Shown in pieces: positions 28,353 through 40,198 of a stretch of DNA of 64,000 nucleotides. The DNA comes from Shewanella donghaensis (GTDB lineage Bacteria > Pseudomonadota > Gammaproteobacteria > Enterobacterales > Shewanellaceae). The DNA lies in NCBI RefSeq assembly GCF_007567505.1, contig NZ_CP041783.1, forward strand, positions 744,001 to 808,000, written 5' to 3'. The notes beneath the pieces are model-generated. The model did no database searches. It was not told the DNA's origin and worked only from the letters and a program-made list of their open reading frames with translations. Every line of letters starts with the position of its first letter. Position 1 is the stretch's first letter. Made by a program: the position numbers and the translations under genes.

Positions 28353-29363
28353 ATGAATACAACAAGTAATAAAATATTTAAACGAGCATTGTTATTGGGG
28401 GGATTGGGCGTTTTCTCACCCTATATGATGGCTATTGATAAGCAAAACAGTGTGGAGATGCAAAAATCAAATTATCCAGATATTGAAAACTGTCCTACAA
28501 ATATAAAGCCTTTTGCAAGTGACTTATCACCCCAATTAATCACCACTGATCTCAAATTCTTAGAAGGGCCAACTTGGTCAACGTTTACAAACAAGTTTTA
28601 TTTCTCAGAAATGGATTTTAATAGTCTTCAAACAAATGGGCCAGAAGCCGCTATTTATTCATGGAACGAGCAAGACGGTATTAAATTGTTTATTGAAAAT
28701 AGCGGTACTAACGGACTTTTTTCTGAAGATAAGCAGTTAATCAGCATGAATCATGATACGCGTTCAGTGAGTACATTTTCCCTTACGACTAAAAAGCGAG
28801 TTTTAATCGTTAATGATTATAACGGCGCGAAGTTTAACTCTCCCAATGACCTTATAAAACATCCTTCTGGTGATTTATTCTTTACCGATCCAGACTGGCA
28901 ATTAAGTGACCGGCCACAACAAACCCCCTTCACTGGCGTGTACAAATTTAGTGAAGATAATGAAGTTACCTTACTATCAACACAATTCATCAAGCCAAAT
29001 GGCATAAGTTTATCTCCTGACAACAAAACTATATATATTGGAGATTATAGCCATCAAATATTTGCACACCAACTTACCAAAAACAACGAGATTGGAGAGT
29101 TAATGTTCAAAATCAATATTGATACGCCGGATGGGATCAATGTAGATTGTGCAGGAAACATCTATGCTGCCAGTCATAATGAAGGTAATTTATATGTTTA
29201 TAACCCACAGGGTGAATTACTTCAAAGCGTTTATATCGCGCCTAAAATTACCAACTTAGCTTTTGGTGGAAAAGATTTAAAAACCATTCTAGTCACAACG
29301 GGTAATGGTTTATTTACCTTTAAATCTAATATCCCAGGGATAACACCAACTCATTCGAATTAA
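28353..29363 (+). CDS. SMP-30/gluconolactonase-family protein, exported
   Basis: A 336-residue six-bladed propeller protein of the SMP-30/gluconolactonase family. Expected metal ligands are visible: Glu in LEGPTW (near 72), Asn in FNSPNDL (near 165), Asn in IKPNGIS and Asp in DTPDGINVD. An N-terminal hydrophobic stretch (RALLLGGLGVFSPYMMA) suggests export. Such enzymes open sugar lactones; in this locus a xylono- or aldonolactone is a reasonable but unproven substrate. Divergent from the second GH10 gene, sharing the operator-like site between them. Its stop overlaps that of the convergent ThuA-like gene by 4 bases. Confidence 0.82.
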   Translation: MNTTSNKIFKRALLLGGLGVFSPYMMAIDKQNSVEMQKSNYPDIENCPTNIKPFASDLSPQLITTDLKFLEGPTWSTFTNKFYFSEMDFNSLQTNGPEAAIYSWNEQDGIKLFIENSGTNGLFSEDKQLISMNHDTRSVSTFSLTTKKRVLIVNDYNGAKFNSPNDLIKHPSGDLFFTDPDWQLSDRPQQTPFTGVYKFSEDNEVTLLSTQFIKPNGISLSPDNKTIYIGDYSHQIFAHQLTKNNEIGELMFKINIDTPDGINVDCAGNIYAASHNEGNLYVYNPQGELLQSVYIAPKITNLAFGGKDLKTILVTTGNGLFTFKSNIPGITPTHSN

Positions 29364-30232
29364 TCTGATGCCTCATGAGTTGTTTTATTAGTCGAGTACA
29401 TACCTTTTCCTGTCGCAGCCCAATATATTCCGCCGTATAAATGGGCTAAAAACACTTCATTTTGATAAACAGGTTTGATGTGGCCCAGTGAAGTATAAAA
29501 TGAACGGCCACCATCATAGTTCTGGTACCAAGCAACGGGGTGAAAACTTCCCATACCACTGCCCTTTTTTGTTACCCAATCAGCATTAGGGTCGTAGCTG
29601 GTTTCATCTACGGTCAAAAGATAATTCAATCCCGTTGAATTGGCTTTACCAAACTCATACCATTCGTCAGTCCACAGGATCTTTTCAGGCATTGATTCTA
29701 GACCTGGAAATTCACTAGACACTTTAGACAGCCAAGCTGTTTGCACTACTGGGTGTATAACGAACGTATGCCCAACGAGTTGTTGGTACCACTGCCAATC
29801 GTATTCGGTATCTGAAGCACTATGTATGCCGACAAAACCTTTACCCGACTGTATATAGCGTTCAAATGCTTGTTGCTGTTCATTAGACAGAATATCACCT
29901 GTCGTCGACAGAAATACCACCACATCAACATTGCTCAGATATTCATCGTTAAAGTAATGGCTTTCTTCATGCCAGATCAAATTGAAATAATGTTTATCCG
30001 CTAACTGTTCTAATGCCGTAACACCTGCTGGAATTGACTTATGATGCCAGCCATTTGTTTTAGTAAACAACAACACATTGAATTGTTTGTCAGGCAGAGA
30101 GTCAAAGCTGGTTGCATGAGCTGATTTATTAATGGACAAACTAAAGACGACAAGCAAAAAAACAATCAACAAATGACTAAACAACAAATTGCATTGAGGT
30201 ATTTCGTGTTTAAAAAACTTATTCATTATCAT
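29360..30232 (-). CDS. ThuA-like domain protein, exported
   Basis: A 290-residue protein with a signal sequence (LLFSHLLIVFLLVVFSLSINKSAHA) and a ThuA-like (glutamine amidotransferase-like fold) domain: FNVLLFTKTNGWHHKSIP, VVVFLSTTGDILSNEQQQAFERYIQSGKGFVGIHSASDTEYDW, GSFHPVAWYQNYDGGRSFYTSLGH. ThuA-like domains occur in sugar utilisation loci; proposed roles include sugar binding or oxidation of sugars, and none is firmly shown. AGGAAAATAATG supports this start. Third gene of a tight set with the halogenase-like and DUF6445 genes (7 bases after the latter). Confidence 0.85.
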   Translation of the reverse strand: MIMNKFFKHEIPQCNLLFSHLLIVFLLVVFSLSINKSAHATSFDSLPDKQFNVLLFTKTNGWHHKSIPAGVTALEQLADKHYFNLIWHEESHYFNDEYLSNVDVVVFLSTTGDILSNEQQQAFERYIQSGKGFVGIHSASDTEYDWQWYQQLVGHTFVIHPVVQTAWLSKVSSEFPGLESMPEKILWTDEWYEFGKANSTGLNYLLTVDETSYDPNADWVTKKGSGMGSFHPVAWYQNYDGGRSFYTSLGHIKPVYQNEVFLAHLYGGIYWAATGKGMYSTNKTTHEASD

Positions 30233-30239
30233 TATTTTC

Positions 30240-30923
30240 CTAGTTAAATTTAATGAATAGATTGGCTGTTAACCTTCCAGTCATTGGATTGTCATTTATG
30301 TCTAATTCAGGGTTTACTAAGCTGGAATGCAGTAACTGACCAGAAAAAATAATGAGGCGGTTTTCTTGGTAAGGGATCACTTTATAACATTCAAAATCTG
30401 GATGATGCTCACCGCAATAACCGCTGTTTGATAATCCATTTACTGTCGTTTGGTATTCATGTAAACGCACTTCATTTATAAATTCATAGCCACTGCTTTT
30501 ATGTCGATAAAATGCTGTACCACCATGTTGATATTGAGATAAGTAATGAATACATGCAATGAGGTTTGGTTGATAAGTATCAAAGTGCGGAATGGTCTGT
30601 ATTAATGACAAATCAGCTTCTTGTGTTGTCAGTAACGAATAGTAGTTATCACGTGGGCTTGGAGTAAGTTCCCGAGGGAAGTTAAAAACCTTATATAAAG
30701 GCAGCATCAAAGGTTTGAGATAGGAAACCACATCAACTTTAGACATGGCGGATCTTATCCCCGGATATTGAGTATGCTTGTCCTGTGTAAAATTAGCGCT
30801 AGCGATAATAACATCACGAACAAGTGCTATATCCGCCATATAATCATCAATGATAACAATAGGTATTCTACTGTTACCCACATACTCAACACAGGGTTTA
30901 ATATTAGGGTTAATACTGAACAT
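30240..30923 (-). CDS. DUF6445-like protein, possible Fe(II)/2-oxoglutarate oxygenase fold
   Basis: A 227-residue cytoplasmic protein without signal peptide. It resembles DUF6445 proteins that accompany tryptophan-halogenase-like genes in TonB-receptor loci (family name from memory). HFDTYQPN (near 112) and the late LLHSSLVNPE plus GRLTANLFIKF suggest the HxD...H...R ligand set of Fe(II)/2-oxoglutarate oxygenases; this is inference from motifs only. Six bases separate it from the halogenase-like gene and seven from the ThuA-like gene, so the three are co-transcribed. Confidence 0.72.
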   Translation of the reverse strand: MFSINPNIKPCVEYVGNSRIPIVIIDDYMADIALVRDVIIASANFTQDKHTQYPGIRSAMSKVDVVSYLKPLMLPLYKVFNFPRELTPSPRDNYYSLLTTQEADLSLIQTIPHFDTYQPNLIACIHYLSQYQHGGTAFYRHKSSGYEFINEVRLHEYQTTVNGLSNSGYCGEHHPDFECYKVIPYQENRLIIFSGQLLHSSLVNPELDINDNPMTGRLTANLFIKFN

Positions 30924-30929
30924 AGTGCG

Positions 30930-32417
30930 TTACAGTGTATTAGATTTGCAGTAATTGTTTATAAAATCAATATGGTTAGGCCAGCTATTAACTCTACGCT
31001 TGATAGACTGTTTAATTGTCCCTAAAAATTGCGCCAATTCTTCATCTGACATGTTATCGACAATAGGGTGATATTGTTCAGGTAACAACCCTTGGCCTAA
31101 CATCACTTGTAACCATGATGCCTCACCAAATAACTCTTTATCTGACTTGAACACTTGACCACTTTGTTTAAATAAATCAATTCGCTTTTGTAAACTCTCT
31201 GGTATATCCATTTGCTTACAGTATCGCCAAAACTCGCTGTCTTGACGTTCAGTTACATGATAATGAAGTACAATAAAGTCACGAATATTTTCGATTTCAA
31301 CACGCATTTTTTGATTAAAATCATCTACAACACCGCTTTCCATGGCTGTTGTAGGTAAATTTTGCATTAACCTAACTATGCTCTGCTGAATCAAATGAAT
31401 ACTGGTTGATTCTAGTGGCTCAATAAAGCCACTGGATAATCCAATAGCCACACAATTTTTGTTCCAATGCTTACGTCGAGTACCGGTGCGAAACTTTAAT
31501 ACCCGAGGTTCATTAAGTAGTTCACCTTCAATATTTTCCACTAACAAGGCTTTAGCTTGATCATCAGTTAAGTACTTACTACAAAATACCAGTCCGTTAC
31601 CCATTCTATTTTGTAGTGGAATTTGCCATTGCCAACCTGACTCTCGCGCAATAGAACGAGTATAGGGCACTAACGGTTTTGTTTGTTTAGTTTGTACTGC
31701 CACTGCACTGTCACAAGGTAACCAGTGGCGCCAATCGTCATAGCCAGTATGAAGTGCACCTTCGATCAACAAGCCCTTAAAACCAGTGCAGTCAATGAAT
31801 AAGTCACCAGCAATACATTCACCATTAGTTAACGTTAATGAGTCTATAAAGCCATTTTCATTATTCAAATTTACCTTTGATATTGTTCCTTCGATACGTT
31901 TTGCGCCATGCTTTTCAGCAAAGGTTCTTAAAAAGCGTGCATATAAGCCTGCATCAGTATGGAAGGCATGGTTTCTATCTTGGTTAGGGAGCACCGCAAA
32001 TCTTCCCACACGACTTGCTACATGTTCCGGGCAGTAGTCGCCGATATCGCTAGCAACGCCTTGCTTAAAGCCTTTAAGCCAAAAATGTTGAAATCCCGCA
32101 GCCCAGCAACTTTGGCCAATATAGCCAAATGAATGCATATAGTCTTGGCCAACATCTCGCCAATTCTCAAATGAGATGCCTAATTTAAATGTCGCATTAG
32201 TTGCCGCCATAAAATCGGCTTCTTTAATTTTTAATAAGTCATGAAACACATGCAAGGTGGGTATTGTTGCCTCGCCCACGCCTACAGTGGGGATCAAGTC
32301 CGATTCAACTAAGGTCACATTAATATGCCTACCTAATAACTTTGAGAAAGCCGCAGCGGCCATCCACCCTGCCGTGCCGCCGCCAGCGATTACTACATTT
32401 GTTATTTTTTTTGTCAT
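30930..32417 (-). CDS. Flavin-dependent halogenase-like protein (tryptophan halogenase family)
   Basis: A 495-residue flavoprotein. The FAD motif VVIAGGGTAGWMAAAAFSKLLG is at the N terminus, then GVGEATIPT, a lysine in ATFKLGISFENW at the place of the catalytic Lys of PrnA, and the halogenase signature WxWxIP in SGWQWQIPLQNRMGNG. These features mark the tryptophan halogenase family. Family members inside carbohydrate loci have mostly unknown substrates. The frame is open from a TTG at 32432, but ATG 32417 begins at the usual MTKKITNVVIAGGG and has AGG upstream. First gene of the set with DUF6445 and ThuA. Confidence 0.9.
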   Translation of the reverse strand: MTKKITNVVIAGGGTAGWMAAAAFSKLLGRHINVTLVESDLIPTVGVGEATIPTLHVFHDLLKIKEADFMAATNATFKLGISFENWRDVGQDYMHSFGYIGQSCWAAGFQHFWLKGFKQGVASDIGDYCPEHVASRVGRFAVLPNQDRNHAFHTDAGLYARFLRTFAEKHGAKRIEGTISKVNLNNENGFIDSLTLTNGECIAGDLFIDCTGFKGLLIEGALHTGYDDWRHWLPCDSAVAVQTKQTKPLVPYTRSIARESGWQWQIPLQNRMGNGLVFCSKYLTDDQAKALLVENIEGELLNEPRVLKFRTGTRRKHWNKNCVAIGLSSGFIEPLESTSIHLIQQSIVRLMQNLPTTAMESGVVDDFNQKMRVEIENIRDFIVLHYHVTERQDSEFWRYCKQMDIPESLQKRIDLFKQSGQVFKSDKELFGEASWLQVMLGQGLLPEQYHPIVDNMSDEELAQFLGTIKQSIKRRVNSWPNHIDFINNYCKSNTL

Positions 32418-32550
32418 GTTGGTAGCCTGCAAATATTATTAGTAATAATAAAATGTGTTTGTTTTATAACTTATGATAATTTAAAGATAAAATCTATGTA
32501 AAACAATTCGATAAACTTGCTAGTCGACGTATTAATGATTAAATAAATGG

Positions 32551-33279
32551 CTAGTGTGTTTGCTGCTTATTTCTAAGTTCAACCAACTTTCTTATATGGG
32601 CTTGTGAAGCAATAATCATATATATTGCTTCTAGATAACCCTCTTTGTGCAGATGCATTACTTTTTCTGCTGCTAATTGACCCAATACATCTTCGTTAAT
32701 GGTATAAAAGCCGATCAGTTGATGTTTGCTGGCGTTGTTTAATTCAACATCTATAGTGACCGCTTCCAACAGTTCATATGCTGTCAGAGCTTCGACAAAC
32801 ATTTTATTTTCATCAACACCTTGATGTAGCAACTCCAACATATTGGCGATGTTTTCCAAATACTCGCTGTTACCACCATAGGGTAGAAATAAATCAATAC
32901 CTGTTTCTTCATTCACTCTTGGGGAATCAACATCAAGGGTAATAACACGCTGTGGTTCAGAGTTACAGTTTAGCGTTGATTGCTGCATACCAATATAAAA
33001 AGGCATTCTTTGCATTGAAATAGGGATATAACTAGCATCCCAATGACCATCGTTTAAGAATAGATTCTCATTATTAGTAAAGCCAAATAATGTCACGGGG
33101 GTAAATTCTCCCGTATCAGCATTCTTTTGGAACATTATCGGATAATGCGCTTGCACGGTTTTAAATTCTGCAACAAATGTTGGTGAGAACCACTGATCGT
33201 CGCCGTATTTTGCTGAACGCTCGGTAATAATTTTAAGGTCTTTATGTTCAATGTTATTGAGCAGTACATGCTTGGCCAT
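32551..33279 (-). CDS. SapC-family protein
   Basis: A 242-residue protein with the SapC-family pattern: VLLNNIEHKDLKI, EFKTVQAHYPIMFQKNADTGEFTPVTLFGFTNNENLFL, WDASYIPISMQRMPFYIGMQ. SapC was first described in Campylobacter S-layer gene clusters; in Shewanella, Caulobacter and Xanthomonas relatives it turns up beside TonB receptors and halogenase-like genes, with no settled function. No signal peptide, so cytoplasmic. AAAGGGTAAACCATG gives a good ribosome-binding site. It lies between the receptor and the halogenase-like gene in the same direction. Confidence 0.85.
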   Translation of the reverse strand: MAKHVLLNNIEHKDLKIITERSAKYGDDQWFSPTFVAEFKTVQAHYPIMFQKNADTGEFTPVTLFGFTNNENLFLNDGHWDASYIPISMQRMPFYIGMQQSTLNCNSEPQRVITLDVDSPRVNEETGIDLFLPYGGNSEYLENIANMLELLHQGVDENKMFVEALTAYELLEAVTIDVELNNASKHQLIGFYTINEDVLGQLAAEKVMHLHKEGYLEAIYMIIASQAHIRKLVELRNKQQTH

Positions 33280-33436
33280 GGTTTACCCTTTGATAATGAG
33301 TGATTACAGTTGAGTTATGCGTGAATAGAGAACTAACCTTACAATTTAATGATTATTGGGAAGACAATATGCCTATTTAACATCGAGTTGTGATTAGCTT
33401 TACATTCAGCTTTTATTACTAGATTAAGATAAAGGG

Positions 33437-33464
33437 TGATAGCGACTGGGGGCAGCCGCTATCA
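33437..33464 (-). terminator. Hairpin after the TonB receptor gene, without T tract
   Basis: Stem TGATAGCG/CGCTATCA (8 bp) around a 12-base loop, 15 bases past the receptor stop. No clear run of T follows, so it may act as a partial terminator or mRNA stabiliser between receptor and SapC genes. Confidence 0.4.
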
Positions 33465-33478
33465 TTTACAGCTCGCTA

Positions 33479-36400
33479 CTAGAACGTATAACGAACCCCT
33501 AATCCATATCGTGCACCTGTTTGTGTTGTTTCAAACACTAACTGGCTTTGACGACCATGTTTTCTCACGACTTCTTCAGTGATGTTAATACCTTCAGCAA
33601 AGACGGTTAGGCCTTCAACTGCAGGGATGTCATAGCTGACACTAAAGTCAATTTGATAATATTCTTCAGTATAAATAGGTGTGGTTAAATCACCGTTAAC
33701 TCTTTTATCTGATAAGAATTGATCGCGCCAGTTATAAGCTATACGCGCTTGAAAACCATAATTATCATAGAACAAGACTAAGTTGGCAGTATCACTTAAG
33801 CCAACCAAGGCTTCGGTATCTTCAAGCGAACTATCATCATATTGCAGATCAGAATCAACCATGGTGTAGTTAGCTATACCACCAAAACCTGAGTCCCAGA
33901 ACAAATGTTGAACATTAAATTCAAAGCCATCGATGGTGTGTTCTGTATCGCCATTCACAGGGACATTAAGATTAAATACGACACCTTCATCCGTTAATGG
34001 GTCGCCAACAATACTACCGCCATCGAGCAGTCCATCTTCATCAAACTTTGGTGTTACATTTGGATCATCTGCATAATTTTCGAAGATATAAGTACGAATT
34101 TGCTCATTAGACGCATTGGCACCTAATGCAGTAACTGCCGCATTAAATTTATCGCCATTAAGTGGATCTGACAAATTGAAGATATTAGATTGTTTCGAAC
34201 CATAACTAATCCAGTTCGATACGTCTTTTTTGAAGTAGCCAATAGATGCATAGCTTCCTTCATCGTAATACCACTCAGTTGATAAGTCGTAATTGATTGA
34301 CTCTAATGGCTCAAGACCAGGGTTACCTGAACTACCGGTATAACCACTTAAGTTACCGCCAGTATTAATGGTGGTTCCGCCGAGTAACGAGTTATAACCC
34401 GCACGAGAAATCGTTTTACCTGCTGCTGCACGTACACGTAATTCGTCAGTCACATCAAGATTGAAGTTAATGTTAGGTAAGAACAAATCATAATCAGCAC
34501 TTTGACTTAAGGTTTCAATACCTGTTTGCCCAGTAACTGAAGTCGATGTATCTTCATTCCACTCAACACGGCTATAGCCTGGTGCTGATGCTGTTGATAC
34601 CACATCTGTTTGCTCGTAACGTAAGCCAACATGGACACTAAATGGCATATCAAACATGTCACCTAAGTAATTAGCTTGAATGTAAGCTGCGGTGGTTTCT
34701 TCTTCAGTAAAGCGGTTAGTATCAGCATCCCACTGGGTTGAAGCACAGAACTGCCCTTCACCATTGGGGCCTGCTGCTGCGCCTGATGCGGCCTGACAAT
34801 CACCATATAAACCATCAACATTAGCTACGGGATCTGCATATTCTGCAGCATTGATAATTTCATCAAAATCAGCAAAGAAAATACGATTGAATAAATCATA
34901 ATCACTTTGAGTCGCTGTTCCTTCAAAATTGCCAGTGCTGTCATCAAACTTGTCTAGGATGGTGTCTTCAGTCCAATTAATATCTTCGAAATCACCTTCT
35001 TCACCCACTCCACCCCAATCGGGACGTTGTACTTGGGTATGACGATAGCGGTTATTCACTGTATTTAGTGACACACCAAAATCAATACTTAAATCACTGT
35101 TTAAATGATATTTACCATCTAACTGAGTTTGATCAATTTCTGAAGTATATTTATCATTGGCAAACCAACTACCCGATAAACGCATGGTACTTGGATTAAA
35201 GTTCTCAATATCACCGATAGCAATACCAGGTAGGCTTCCTGTTAAATCAAGACCAGATCGAGTACGTGTGTATGAAGGCAATTGCACATTGTTTCGCGTT
35301 CCATGACGCGGATCAGTGGCTTCCATATTGGCTTTAGAGCTGTGATGGTCCAGTGTTAGTACCAAGTCATCAGTTACTTGCCAATCAATATTTAAACCAA
35401 TTGAATCTGTTATTTCTTCACGACCCCAAGCACCTACCGTTAACGAGGTATCTTTTAAATCGGCCGGACTATTAATGTCATAAATTTCAGAGTATATAAG
35501 GGGTACTGCATTGGGCTCGCCTGTCCAAACTGATTCGCTACGATCGCCTGCATAGTTAAACCAAACAGATGCATCAGTGTGCTGCTCTTCGATAGTATTT
35601 CTAAAAGTAGTGTAATCCGCAGTAATAGTTAACGTCTCGATAGGACGGTATTGCAGCGTTAATTGACCATTAATACGCTCACGTTGACGTTCTTCAATAA
35701 CATAACGTGGCTGTTGAGGGTTCGAGTAAATTCCAGATGTTGGACGGTTGGTACCACCGGCTTCACCAGCAGGAACGCCACCCCAACCCGCGTTGGTATA
35801 ATCACTTGCGCGATAACCCTGATCTTGCAAGAACTGCTTCATGCCGCTTTCACGTTCTTGATAACTACCCGATATCGCAATACCGAATGTGTCATCAGCA
35901 AAAGTCTGTGAATATAAACCACTCAATTCAGGCGTGACACCACCAGTCTCAGTTGACTGATCGTCAACACCTTTACCTGAAATCGTTGCAGTTAAACCAG
36001 GCGCACTTAGAGGTTTAAAGCTGGTTAAATTAATTGTCGCACCGATACCGCCAGATGTAACACTGGCATCTGAAGTTTTATAAACTTCAACACCTGATAC
36101 ACTTTCTGCAGCTATATTTGCGAAATCAAAGGTACGGCTACCTGTGGTGTTCGGTAGTTGGCGACCATTTAAAGTAATTAGATTTTGCTCTGACCCAAAA
36201 CCACGTACTGTAACAGTACTACCTTCACCGTTTGAACGATCAATCGAAACACCAGTGATACGCTGTAATGATTCAGCTAAGTTAGTATCAGGGAATTTAC
36301 CGATATCTTCAGCAGAAATAGCATCGACTACGCCATTTGCTTCTCGCTTTAAATCCATTGAACGGACTAAACTGCCGCGAATACCTGTAACTTGAATCAC

Positions 36401-36502
36401 TTCTACTTCATCAGTTGCTTCATCAGCAAAACTGGTTTGTGTTGCAGCCATAGAACCTAGTGCTGCTAGAATTGAAGTGGTTATTATCTTTTTATTAAAC
36501 AT
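33479..36502 (-). CDS. TonB-dependent receptor, carbohydrate type
   Basis: A 1007-residue outer-membrane receptor of the Xanthomonas/Caulobacter carbohydrate type. Signal peptide FNKKIITTSILAALGSMAATQTSFA, then a TonB-box-like region (DEVEVIQVTGIRGSL), the plug (EANGVVDAISAEDIGKFPDTNLAESLQRITGVSIDR, VRGFGSEQNLITLNGRQLP), and a long beta-barrel ending in the outer-membrane signal RYGLGVRYTF. In this locus xylan fragments are the obvious ligand, by context only. The frame is open 10 codons further, but GGGGAGAG lies just before ATG 36502. Its leader holds two hairpins and an operator-like inverted repeat about 260 bases upstream. Confidence 0.93.
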   Translation of the reverse strand: MFNKKIITTSILAALGSMAATQTSFADEATDEVEVIQVTGIRGSLVRSMDLKREANGVVDAISAEDIGKFPDTNLAESLQRITGVSIDRSNGEGSTVTVRGFGSEQNLITLNGRQLPNTTGSRTFDFANIAAESVSGVEVYKTSDASVTSGGIGATINLTSFKPLSAPGLTATISGKGVDDQSTETGGVTPELSGLYSQTFADDTFGIAISGSYQERESGMKQFLQDQGYRASDYTNAGWGGVPAGEAGGTNRPTSGIYSNPQQPRYVIEERQRERINGQLTLQYRPIETLTITADYTTFRNTIEEQHTDASVWFNYAGDRSESVWTGEPNAVPLIYSEIYDINSPADLKDTSLTVGAWGREEITDSIGLNIDWQVTDDLVLTLDHHSSKANMEATDPRHGTRNNVQLPSYTRTRSGLDLTGSLPGIAIGDIENFNPSTMRLSGSWFANDKYTSEIDQTQLDGKYHLNSDLSIDFGVSLNTVNNRYRHTQVQRPDWGGVGEEGDFEDINWTEDTILDKFDDSTGNFEGTATQSDYDLFNRIFFADFDEIINAAEYADPVANVDGLYGDCQAASGAAAGPNGEGQFCASTQWDADTNRFTEEETTAAYIQANYLGDMFDMPFSVHVGLRYEQTDVVSTASAPGYSRVEWNEDTSTSVTGQTGIETLSQSADYDLFLPNINFNLDVTDELRVRAAAGKTISRAGYNSLLGGTTINTGGNLSGYTGSSGNPGLEPLESINYDLSTEWYYDEGSYASIGYFKKDVSNWISYGSKQSNIFNLSDPLNGDKFNAAVTALGANASNEQIRTYIFENYADDPNVTPKFDEDGLLDGGSIVGDPLTDEGVVFNLNVPVNGDTEHTIDGFEFNVQHLFWDSGFGGIANYTMVDSDLQYDDSSLEDTEALVGLSDTANLVLFYDNYGFQARIAYNWRDQFLSDKRVNGDLTTPIYTEEYYQIDFSVSYDIPAVEGLTVFAEGINITEEVVRKHGRQSQLVFETTQTGARYGLGVRYTF

Positions 36503-36554
36503 CTCACTCTCCCCTCGCTTCGTTATTGCCAATATGGCAATGACTCCTTTTTAA

Positions 36555-39481: not shown

Positions 39482-40198
39482 TTAGTATTCGAATGTATAA
39501 CCGAATTGTGCCAATTTTTCATAGACTTCCACATCAAACCGATACAGTGCAGCAGCGCGATGTGCTACATTGCGTTGCTTTTCTTTACAGTCGATGAGTA
39601 AATCCATTTTTAATATTTTTCTGCGGAAGTTGGGTTTGTCTAGCGTTACGCCCAATATAGATTCATATAAATCTTGCAGTTGTAATAGCGTGAACTTTTC
39701 AGGTAACAAGCTGAAACCAATAGGTTCATGCCTTACTTTGTATTTCAGATGATTTAAGCAACTGGCCAAAATATTATCATGATCAAACATCAGTGTTGGT
39801 ACTTGTCTCACATCAAACCATTCACACTCAATCGCATTAGCACCATGAGTTAAATTGGTGTCATCGAAACGGACTAGAGAATAAAAAGCAATGGTAATAA
39901 TTCGTCTAGCAGGATAGCGATCAACATCGCCAAATGCACCAAGTTGGTCTAAGTACAAGTTTTCAACACCTGTCGTGTTTTTAACAACGCGAGATGCTGC
40001 CGTTTCAAGGTTTTCATTACTACGCACCCAGTGACCTACTAGTCCCCACTTATTTGTTGCAAGCCCCTGATTATATTTAACCAGCAACACTTTTAGCTTG
40101 CCTTCATGTAGGGTAAAAATAAGATTATCGACGGTTAAGTTACTAATACAATCAGCTGGGATGGTTTCTTCATCAATAACGTCGTTTATAAAATTCAC
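39482..40198 (-). CDS. Nudix-type transcription regulator (NrtR-like)
   Basis: A 238-residue protein with an N-terminal Nudix fold (DNLIFTLHEGKLKVLLVK, LVGHWVRSNENLETAASRVVKNTTGVENLYLDQLGAFGDVDRYPARRIITIAFY) and a C-terminal winged-helix part (FTLLQLQDLYESILGVTLDKPNFRRKILKMDLL). The Nudix box GX5EX7REUXEEXGU is degenerate, with no REXXEE, so it should bind a ligand and not hydrolyse it, as in NrtR regulators. NrtR-family members bind sites with a GT-N7-AC core; four such sites lie in this locus. It starts at GTG. A pentose or xylose derivative is a likely effector. Confidence 0.88.
   Translation of the reverse strand: MNFINDVIDEETIPADCISNLTVDNLIFTLHEGKLKVLLVKYNQGLATNKWGLVGHWVRSNENLETAASRVVKNTTGVENLYLDQLGAFGDVDRYPARRIITIAFYSLVRFDDTNLTHGANAIECEWFDVRQVPTLMFDHDNILASCLNHLKYKVRHEPIGFSLLPEKFTLLQLQDLYESILGVTLDKPNFRRKILKMDLLIDCKEKQRNVAHRAAALYRFDVEVYEKLAQFGYTFEY

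Follow-up and report, generated by a model that had tools for sequence, protein, structure and literature searches.

Why does a xylan utilization locus carry a flavin-dependent halogenase? In Shewanella donghaensis (contig NZ_CP041783.1, positions 744,001 to 808,000; this whole stretch of 64,000 nucleotides is called the window), the gene of a TonB-dependent receptor is followed on the minus strand by genes for SapC, a flavin-dependent halogenase, a DUF6445 protein and a ThuA-like protein. The original prediction regarded the five as a co-inherited group and offered three tasks for it: modification of the receptor, action on aromatic decorations of xylan, or production of a signal. We examined the neighbourhoods of these genes in the same genome, in related genomes and in public genomes, and found the cassette to be recurrently linked to TonB-dependent receptors, beside different sugar genes. 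Among the three tasks, modification of a receptor residue came out as the best supported, with the receptor as the presumed substrate.

Linkage of the cassette to TonB-dependent receptors

The 4.9-Mb host genome contains six full-length halogenases (PF04820), four SapC and three DUF6445 genes, besides two pieces of one diverged PF04820 relative. All six halogenases lie downstream of a TonB-dependent receptor on the same strand, behind five receptors: receptor-SapC-halogenase-DUF6445 in the xylan locus, receptor-halogenase-SapC-cupin_8-halogenase-DUF6445 at GH1/GH3 genes, receptor-halogenase-SapC at GH20, receptor-halogenase in a GH13/alpha-glucan locus, and receptor-halogenase-SapC at a locus with no sugar assigned. 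Nine receptors of this genome exceed the TIGR01782 cut-off, and the top five by score are exactly the five halogenase-linked ones; none of the remaining four adjoins a PF04820 match. The third DUF6445 gene (L176, 7735-8442) has neither a receptor nor a halogenase recognised alongside.

The related-genome set comprised 15 genomes, 14 of the same genus as the source, so that the cases are not independent. At E <= 1e-60, 28 halogenases were found in 12 genomes, and together with the six of S. donghaensis every one has a TIGR01782-type receptor within 4 kb (34/34, where uniform placement expects about 1%). SapC was within 5 kb of a receptor in 19 of 21 cases across the own genome and the 15 relatives. 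From the receptor side, 24 of 59 had a halogenase within 5 kb; these 59 are 50 from the relatives at E <= 1e-80, some of them fragments, and the nine own ones.

Public genomes were scanned with the six own halogenases as queries, and the 80 loci considered here are the best matches listed, not all that exist. A receptor was found by tblastn within 5 kb of the halogenase in 65 of the 80; among the 65 loci offering 8 kb or more of upstream sequence, 59 had one. Other partners near the halogenase were cupin_8 (55 loci) and SapC (49 loci), and 47 loci had two or more halogenases. Behind plus-strand receptors the first module gene, always on the same strand, was a halogenase in 47 cases, SapC in 16 and cupin_8 in one, and the median gap from the receptor to the next module gene was 109.5 bp (60 cases). 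The predicted co-inheritance was thus borne out well beyond chance by neighbourhood statistics. As for membership, receptor, SapC and halogenase held their place, DUF6445 proved to be an occasional member (12 of 80) and ThuA fell out of the group, since none was detected within 8 kb of the halogenase in the 80 loci with one ThuA seed. The listed loci are spread over alpha-, beta- and gammaproteobacteria, for example Shewanella (L047), Xanthomonas (L117), Sphingomonas, Duganella and Colwellia. This agrees with the expected recurrence in Shewanella and Xanthomonas; for Caulobacter, also named at the outset, what was seen in a control genome is the presence of PF04820 and SapC, not their neighbourhood.

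Composition of the module and its sugar contexts

In its fullest form the module is receptor - halogenase A - SapC - FIH-like oxygenase - halogenase B - (DUF6445). Two usual partners, the FIH-like cupin_8 oxygenase and the second halogenase, are missing from the xylan locus. The module occurs in beta-glucoside, alpha-glucan, N-acetylglucosamine, galactoside, xylan and agar loci, and for this reason action on xylan aromatics is disfavoured as its task. In five module-type plasmid copies that were inspected, the receptor came first and subsets of the module followed in unchanged relative order; neighbouring genes encoded GH16/GH3, agarase, GH3 or galactosidases, and one stretch had no sugar gene.

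Two further loci deserve mention. In a Comamonadaceae metagenome-assembled genome (L085, 10007-12232), a 741-aa frame contains halogenase and DUF6445 in-frame. A relative that lacks halogenase and SapC (L180, 6031-8680) has the orthologous N-acetylglucosamine receptor split over two frames, with GH20 and LacI genes whole.

Genes of the xylan-locus cassette

Gene order, strand and the gaps of 6 bases (halogenase-DUF6445) and 7 bases (DUF6445-ThuA) are as originally described, judging by coordinates and family profiles. The receptor gene (33479..36502, minus strand, as are all cassette features), the proposed substrate of the cassette, begins with ATG in a frame open back to a TTG at 36532. Its product has a signal-like N-terminus and both plug (PF07715) and barrel (PF00593) domains, and scores 628.7 bits with TIGR01782 against a curated cut-off of 310. 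SapC (32551..33279; 242 aa; PF07277, 226.8 bits against a gathering cut-off of 28.9) is the proposed presenter or recognition partner. The halogenase gene (30930..32417; Trp_halogenase PF04820, 621.3 bits) starts with ATG in a frame open from a TTG at 32432, and is followed by DUF6445 (30240..30923; PF20043, 192.1 bits). ThuA (29360..30232; PF06283, 223.1 bits) has a strongly hydrophobic N-terminus; it is next in the gene run and outside the recurrent module. A 12-pair stem-loop between receptor and SapC (33437..33464), recognised by a consensus match only, could possibly make expression of the enzymes lower than that of the receptor; stem-loop-type sites in the region are no more numerous than in shuffles.

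The surroundings are indeed those of a xylan/xylose locus, with two GH10 and two GH43 genes, a GPH symporter, a LacI regulator, an FGGY kinase, a xylose-isomerase-like protein and a transaldolase. A regulator of NrtR/AraR type with a NUDIX domain (39482-40198) adjoins the LacI regulator. On the plus strand, the 3' end of an SMP-30/gluconolactonase-like gene (28353-29363) shares 4 bases with the end of ThuA.

The halogenase and its nearest known relatives

In open reading frame numbering, the window halogenase carries GGGTAGW at 17 (GxGxxG), K83, WQWQIP at 267 (WxWxIP) and E341; by motifs and alignment, K83 and E341 are the active-site Lys and Glu that had been anticipated. These two residues are invariant across the six own halogenases, and each is kept in 41/41 type A and 90/93 type B enzymes. 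A third type makes up 8 of the 28 halogenases in the relatives, with about 31-39% identity to both A and B seeds; it was seen in receptor loci L214, L215 and L219-L224, and is the sole halogenase there once or twice.

The top-scoring solved relative is Xcc4156 (PDB 6y1w, 619.5 bits), and BrvH (PDB 6frl, 465.3 bits) ranks third. Catalytic residues and short substrate loops are alike in these proteins, both substrate-binding loop regions being short in the gap-free alignment to 6y1w (regions as named in PMC7336383). Xcc4156 and BrvH are open-site brominases whose native substrate is called unknown (PMC7336383), and peptides have been proposed in print as substrates for the open active site. By its sequence, the window protein would be a type B halogenase of this open-site kind, and its reaction is probably bromination. 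The window protein does not fit a free-tryptophan halogenase (PrnA/RebH), which has a long lid bearing the residues that bind the amino and carboxyl groups of Trp (named for RebH in PMC5945002); PrnA has residues inserted there relative to the window protein. Like many cassette modules, BrvH is accompanied by a second halogenase gene, located upstream (PMC5945002). Both solved relatives were characterised as isolated enzymes; the main text of PMC5945002 mentions neither TonB nor SapC, and that of PMC7336383 has no mention of TonB.

Flavin-dependent modification of tryptophan within polypeptides has precedents. MibH and SrpI, from pathways of ribosomally synthesized and post-translationally modified peptides, halogenate Trp within a ribosomal peptide (PMC5945002, PMC11544707). 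SrpI depends on a leader and its target is a C-terminal Trp (PMC11544707), whereas the window receptor ends in Phe. A scan confined to the receptor-to-module gaps revealed no recurring small open reading frame, 103 small frames giving two cross-locus pairs. QhpG, acting as a complex with its partner proteins, dihydroxylates a Trp of a protein chain, and its closest structural neighbour is CmlS (PMC7876137); its role lies in cofactor biogenesis, not in receptor modification. Kinship to the tryptophylquinone maturases QhpG and LodB is weak, at 25.4 of 240 and 23.7 of 400 bits, far under the curated cut-offs.

Oxygenases and SapC

The original prediction of a possible Fe(II)/2-oxoglutarate (2OG) oxygenase stood up well. 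H113, D115, H199 and R217 of DUF6445, an HxD...H triad plus Arg, are invariant in 13/13 sequences, and the predicted model adopts a double-stranded beta-helix fold. It is closest to protein hydroxylases, with the small-molecule oxygenases PolD and PasI within 2 Z. Fold and Fe/2OG residues are shared with prolyl 4-hydroxylase (P4H)-like hydroxylases (OGFOD1/Tpa1, PHD2, EF-Tu P4H) at 9-17% identity, and the cupin_8 partner of the module matches FIH. In sequence, both DUF6445 and the cupin_8 partner carry the Fe/2OG residues, and DUF6445 is predicted from the model to be an Fe(II)/2OG oxygenase. No paper on DUF6445 was found in the open full-text literature, subscription journals being outside the scope of our searches.

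The AlphaFold model of SapC (predicted local distance difference test, pLDDT, 96.5; predicted template modelling score, pTM, 0.90) matched no fold among solved structures. The family name implies a role in S-layers. We surveyed SapC on plasmids in a small set of 16 neighbourhoods, hand-picked by rank and diversity from 42 records, with an incomplete plasmid gene table; five were of the module type, one had no annotation and ten were other. A large or surface-type exported protein was encoded upstream of SapC in five of these ten and absent from the other five. Such proteins were of filamentous-haemagglutinin type, contained autotransporter-associated repeats (two contexts, one with an intervening gene), or were a LEPR-XLL protein (HlyD and a protease intervening) and a DUF4214 protein, the last presumably exported, as is general for its family. 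Its position behind exported proteins in five of these other contexts suggests exported polypeptides as partners of SapC. The SapC paralogues behind the giant or surface-type proteins (L187, L190, L192, L197, L189) have no halogenase. DUF6447, of about 70-90 aa, directly adjoins SapC on Sulfitobacter and Pseudomonas plasmids (L189, 5815-6033; L194, 4744-5004).

Receptor clades and the search for a modified residue

An alignment of 117 receptors was used to build a tree with FastTree, a fast method, with long branches flagged. It contained 86 linked receptors and 31 unlinked ones. Of the linked, 19 are from related genomes, and the other 67 come from the loci, own genome and window and were required to be free of X, to have 780 aa or more and to lie no farther than 5 kb from a halogenase or SapC; of the unlinked, 27 are from related genomes and four are own. 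Frames cut by contig ends and the receptor fragments of G001 and G006 were excluded. For the 80 listed loci, the halogenase type is that of the best-matching seed. The window receptor is placed in a halogenase-linked clade. Absence of a linked halogenase requires 8 changes on this tree (shuffled mean 27.5, as low in 0/500), and the states none, A, B, AB and third type require 19 (shuffled mean 63.1, as low in 0/200). Type A is linked in 12/14 receptors of the N-acetylglucosamine-type clade, the other two having the third type alone; type B is linked in 14/14 of the maltose-type clade and in 52/52 of the beta-glucoside/xylan clade, 37 of which have type A as well. In the sequences, halogenase type therefore clusters by receptor clade, which is a matter of clustering and not of direction.

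Could the modified residue be recognised in the same alignment? The strongest Trp contrasts between linked and unlinked receptors were W324 (67/86 vs 5/31) and W935 (69/86 vs 6/31), and both were rejected as targets, since they track receptor clades. When ancestry was taken into account, no column of the 117 receptors was significant (5 independent contrasts for any halogenase, 12 for type A). The closest was W240 with type A, at 2.9 contrasts with and 0.3 against (median p 0.25). No target residue was thus identifiable from this alignment.

Proposed task and alternative explanations

We propose that the receptor precursor, prior to its export, undergoes halogenation (probably bromination) and hydroxylation of side chains by the cassette enzymes, and consider that this stands an even chance of being right. 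No signal-like N-terminus was seen by eye on SapC or the cassette enzymes; the test was crude, and a simple hydropathy window did not separate the Rossmann start of the halogenase or the window DUF6445 from receptors. SapC and the enzymes are therefore predicted to be cytoplasmic, and as such would meet the receptor before export. According to this model, the enzymes would act on the newly made receptor chain, SapC would hold or present the unfolded receptor to halogenase and hydroxylases, and the modified side chains might alter sugar binding or stability of the receptor. A broader version, which we put forward tentatively and with some doubt, is that sugar receptors of the TonB type in many proteobacteria are covalently brominated and hydroxylated. 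A dedicated cytoplasmic pathway, made up of SapC, tryptophan brominases and Fe/2OG hydroxylases (one or two of each enzyme), would act on the unfolded chain before secretion, resulting in modified aromatics in the outer membrane, and SapC would generally present exported surface proteins to enzymes of this sort.

Several observations weigh against a receptor substrate. Six of the 65 listed loci with at least 8 kb upstream (L053, L072, L081, L099, L107 and L118) have no receptor by tblastn; the most telling is L072 (6555-11482), where no receptor accompanies halogenase-SapC-cupin_8-halogenase over 13.6 kb, a stretch whose far end coincides with that of the contig. Relatives of the halogenase brominate free indole in vitro (PMC5945002), DUF6445 matches small-molecule oxygenases nearly as well as protein hydroxylases, and SapC paralogues stand behind other exported proteins. 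Most of this would suit a small cytoplasmic product, an indole or aromatic bearing halogen or hydroxyl groups, that acts in concert with the receptor as a signal, a ligand or an antimicrobial; natural-product pathways are, after all, known to employ halogenases and 2OG oxygenases frequently. We nevertheless think it unlikely. No recurring neighbour able to build or export a compound was detected among the unseeded neighbour clusters of the 80 listed loci, as the largest (14 and 7 loci) look like shadow frames of GC-rich DNA and the next (6 loci each) have sequence starts resembling sugar transport or metabolism genes. Because of this, and because six halogenases stand behind five receptors in one genome and their types cluster by receptor clade, the signal offered originally is disfavoured as well. 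Moreover, BrvH is only weakly active on indole and does not brominate free Trp (PMC5945002).

The halogenases without a nearby receptor and the SapC paralogues could point to a different polypeptide, be it an envelope protein of general function (TonB or ExbB, for example) or one of the other exported products of the operon. This seems quite unlikely to us, given that no non-enzyme neighbour is as constant as the receptor and the remaining genes vary with the sugar. The copies on plasmids would fit a co-regulated or selfish cassette whose genes just travel together with no common biochemical task, which the tight spacing, the clustering of types by receptor clade and the conservation of the catalytic Lys and Glu render very unlikely. 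Finally, the position among xylanases, together with the general knowledge that xylan is often feruloylated, might suggest enzymes acting on the imported sugar or its aromatic decorations (ferulate, lignin links). This is highly improbable, since the N-acetylglucosamine, alpha-glucan, agar and galactoside loci concern sugars not known for such groups and the enzymes have no export signal visible in the crude test.

Earlier reports and significance

The loci known as CUT (carbohydrate utilization systems containing TonB-dependent transporters) of Xanthomonas, Caulobacter and Shewanella also combine a receptor with sugar genes (PMC1790865, PMC2996990), and the main texts of both papers mention neither halogenase nor SapC. 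No report of the cassette, or of halogenase, SapC and TonB-dependent receptor together, was found in the part of the open full-text literature examined, nor was the reading of the receptor as substrate. Papers on N-acetylglucosamine and maltodextrin loci reportedly list such genes; for this reason, and since subscription literature was outside the scope, the gene association may be partly in print already.

For most brominases of the BrvH/Xcc4156 type, the neighbourhood points to one specific polypeptide as candidate substrate. If the receptor is indeed modified, it would be, to our knowledge, the first halogenated native outer-membrane protein. It would also assign a task to SapC and DUF6445, two families that lack one, provide a source of protein brominases with defined protein substrates, and reveal an unexpected extra step in the way bacteria tune their sugar uptake.
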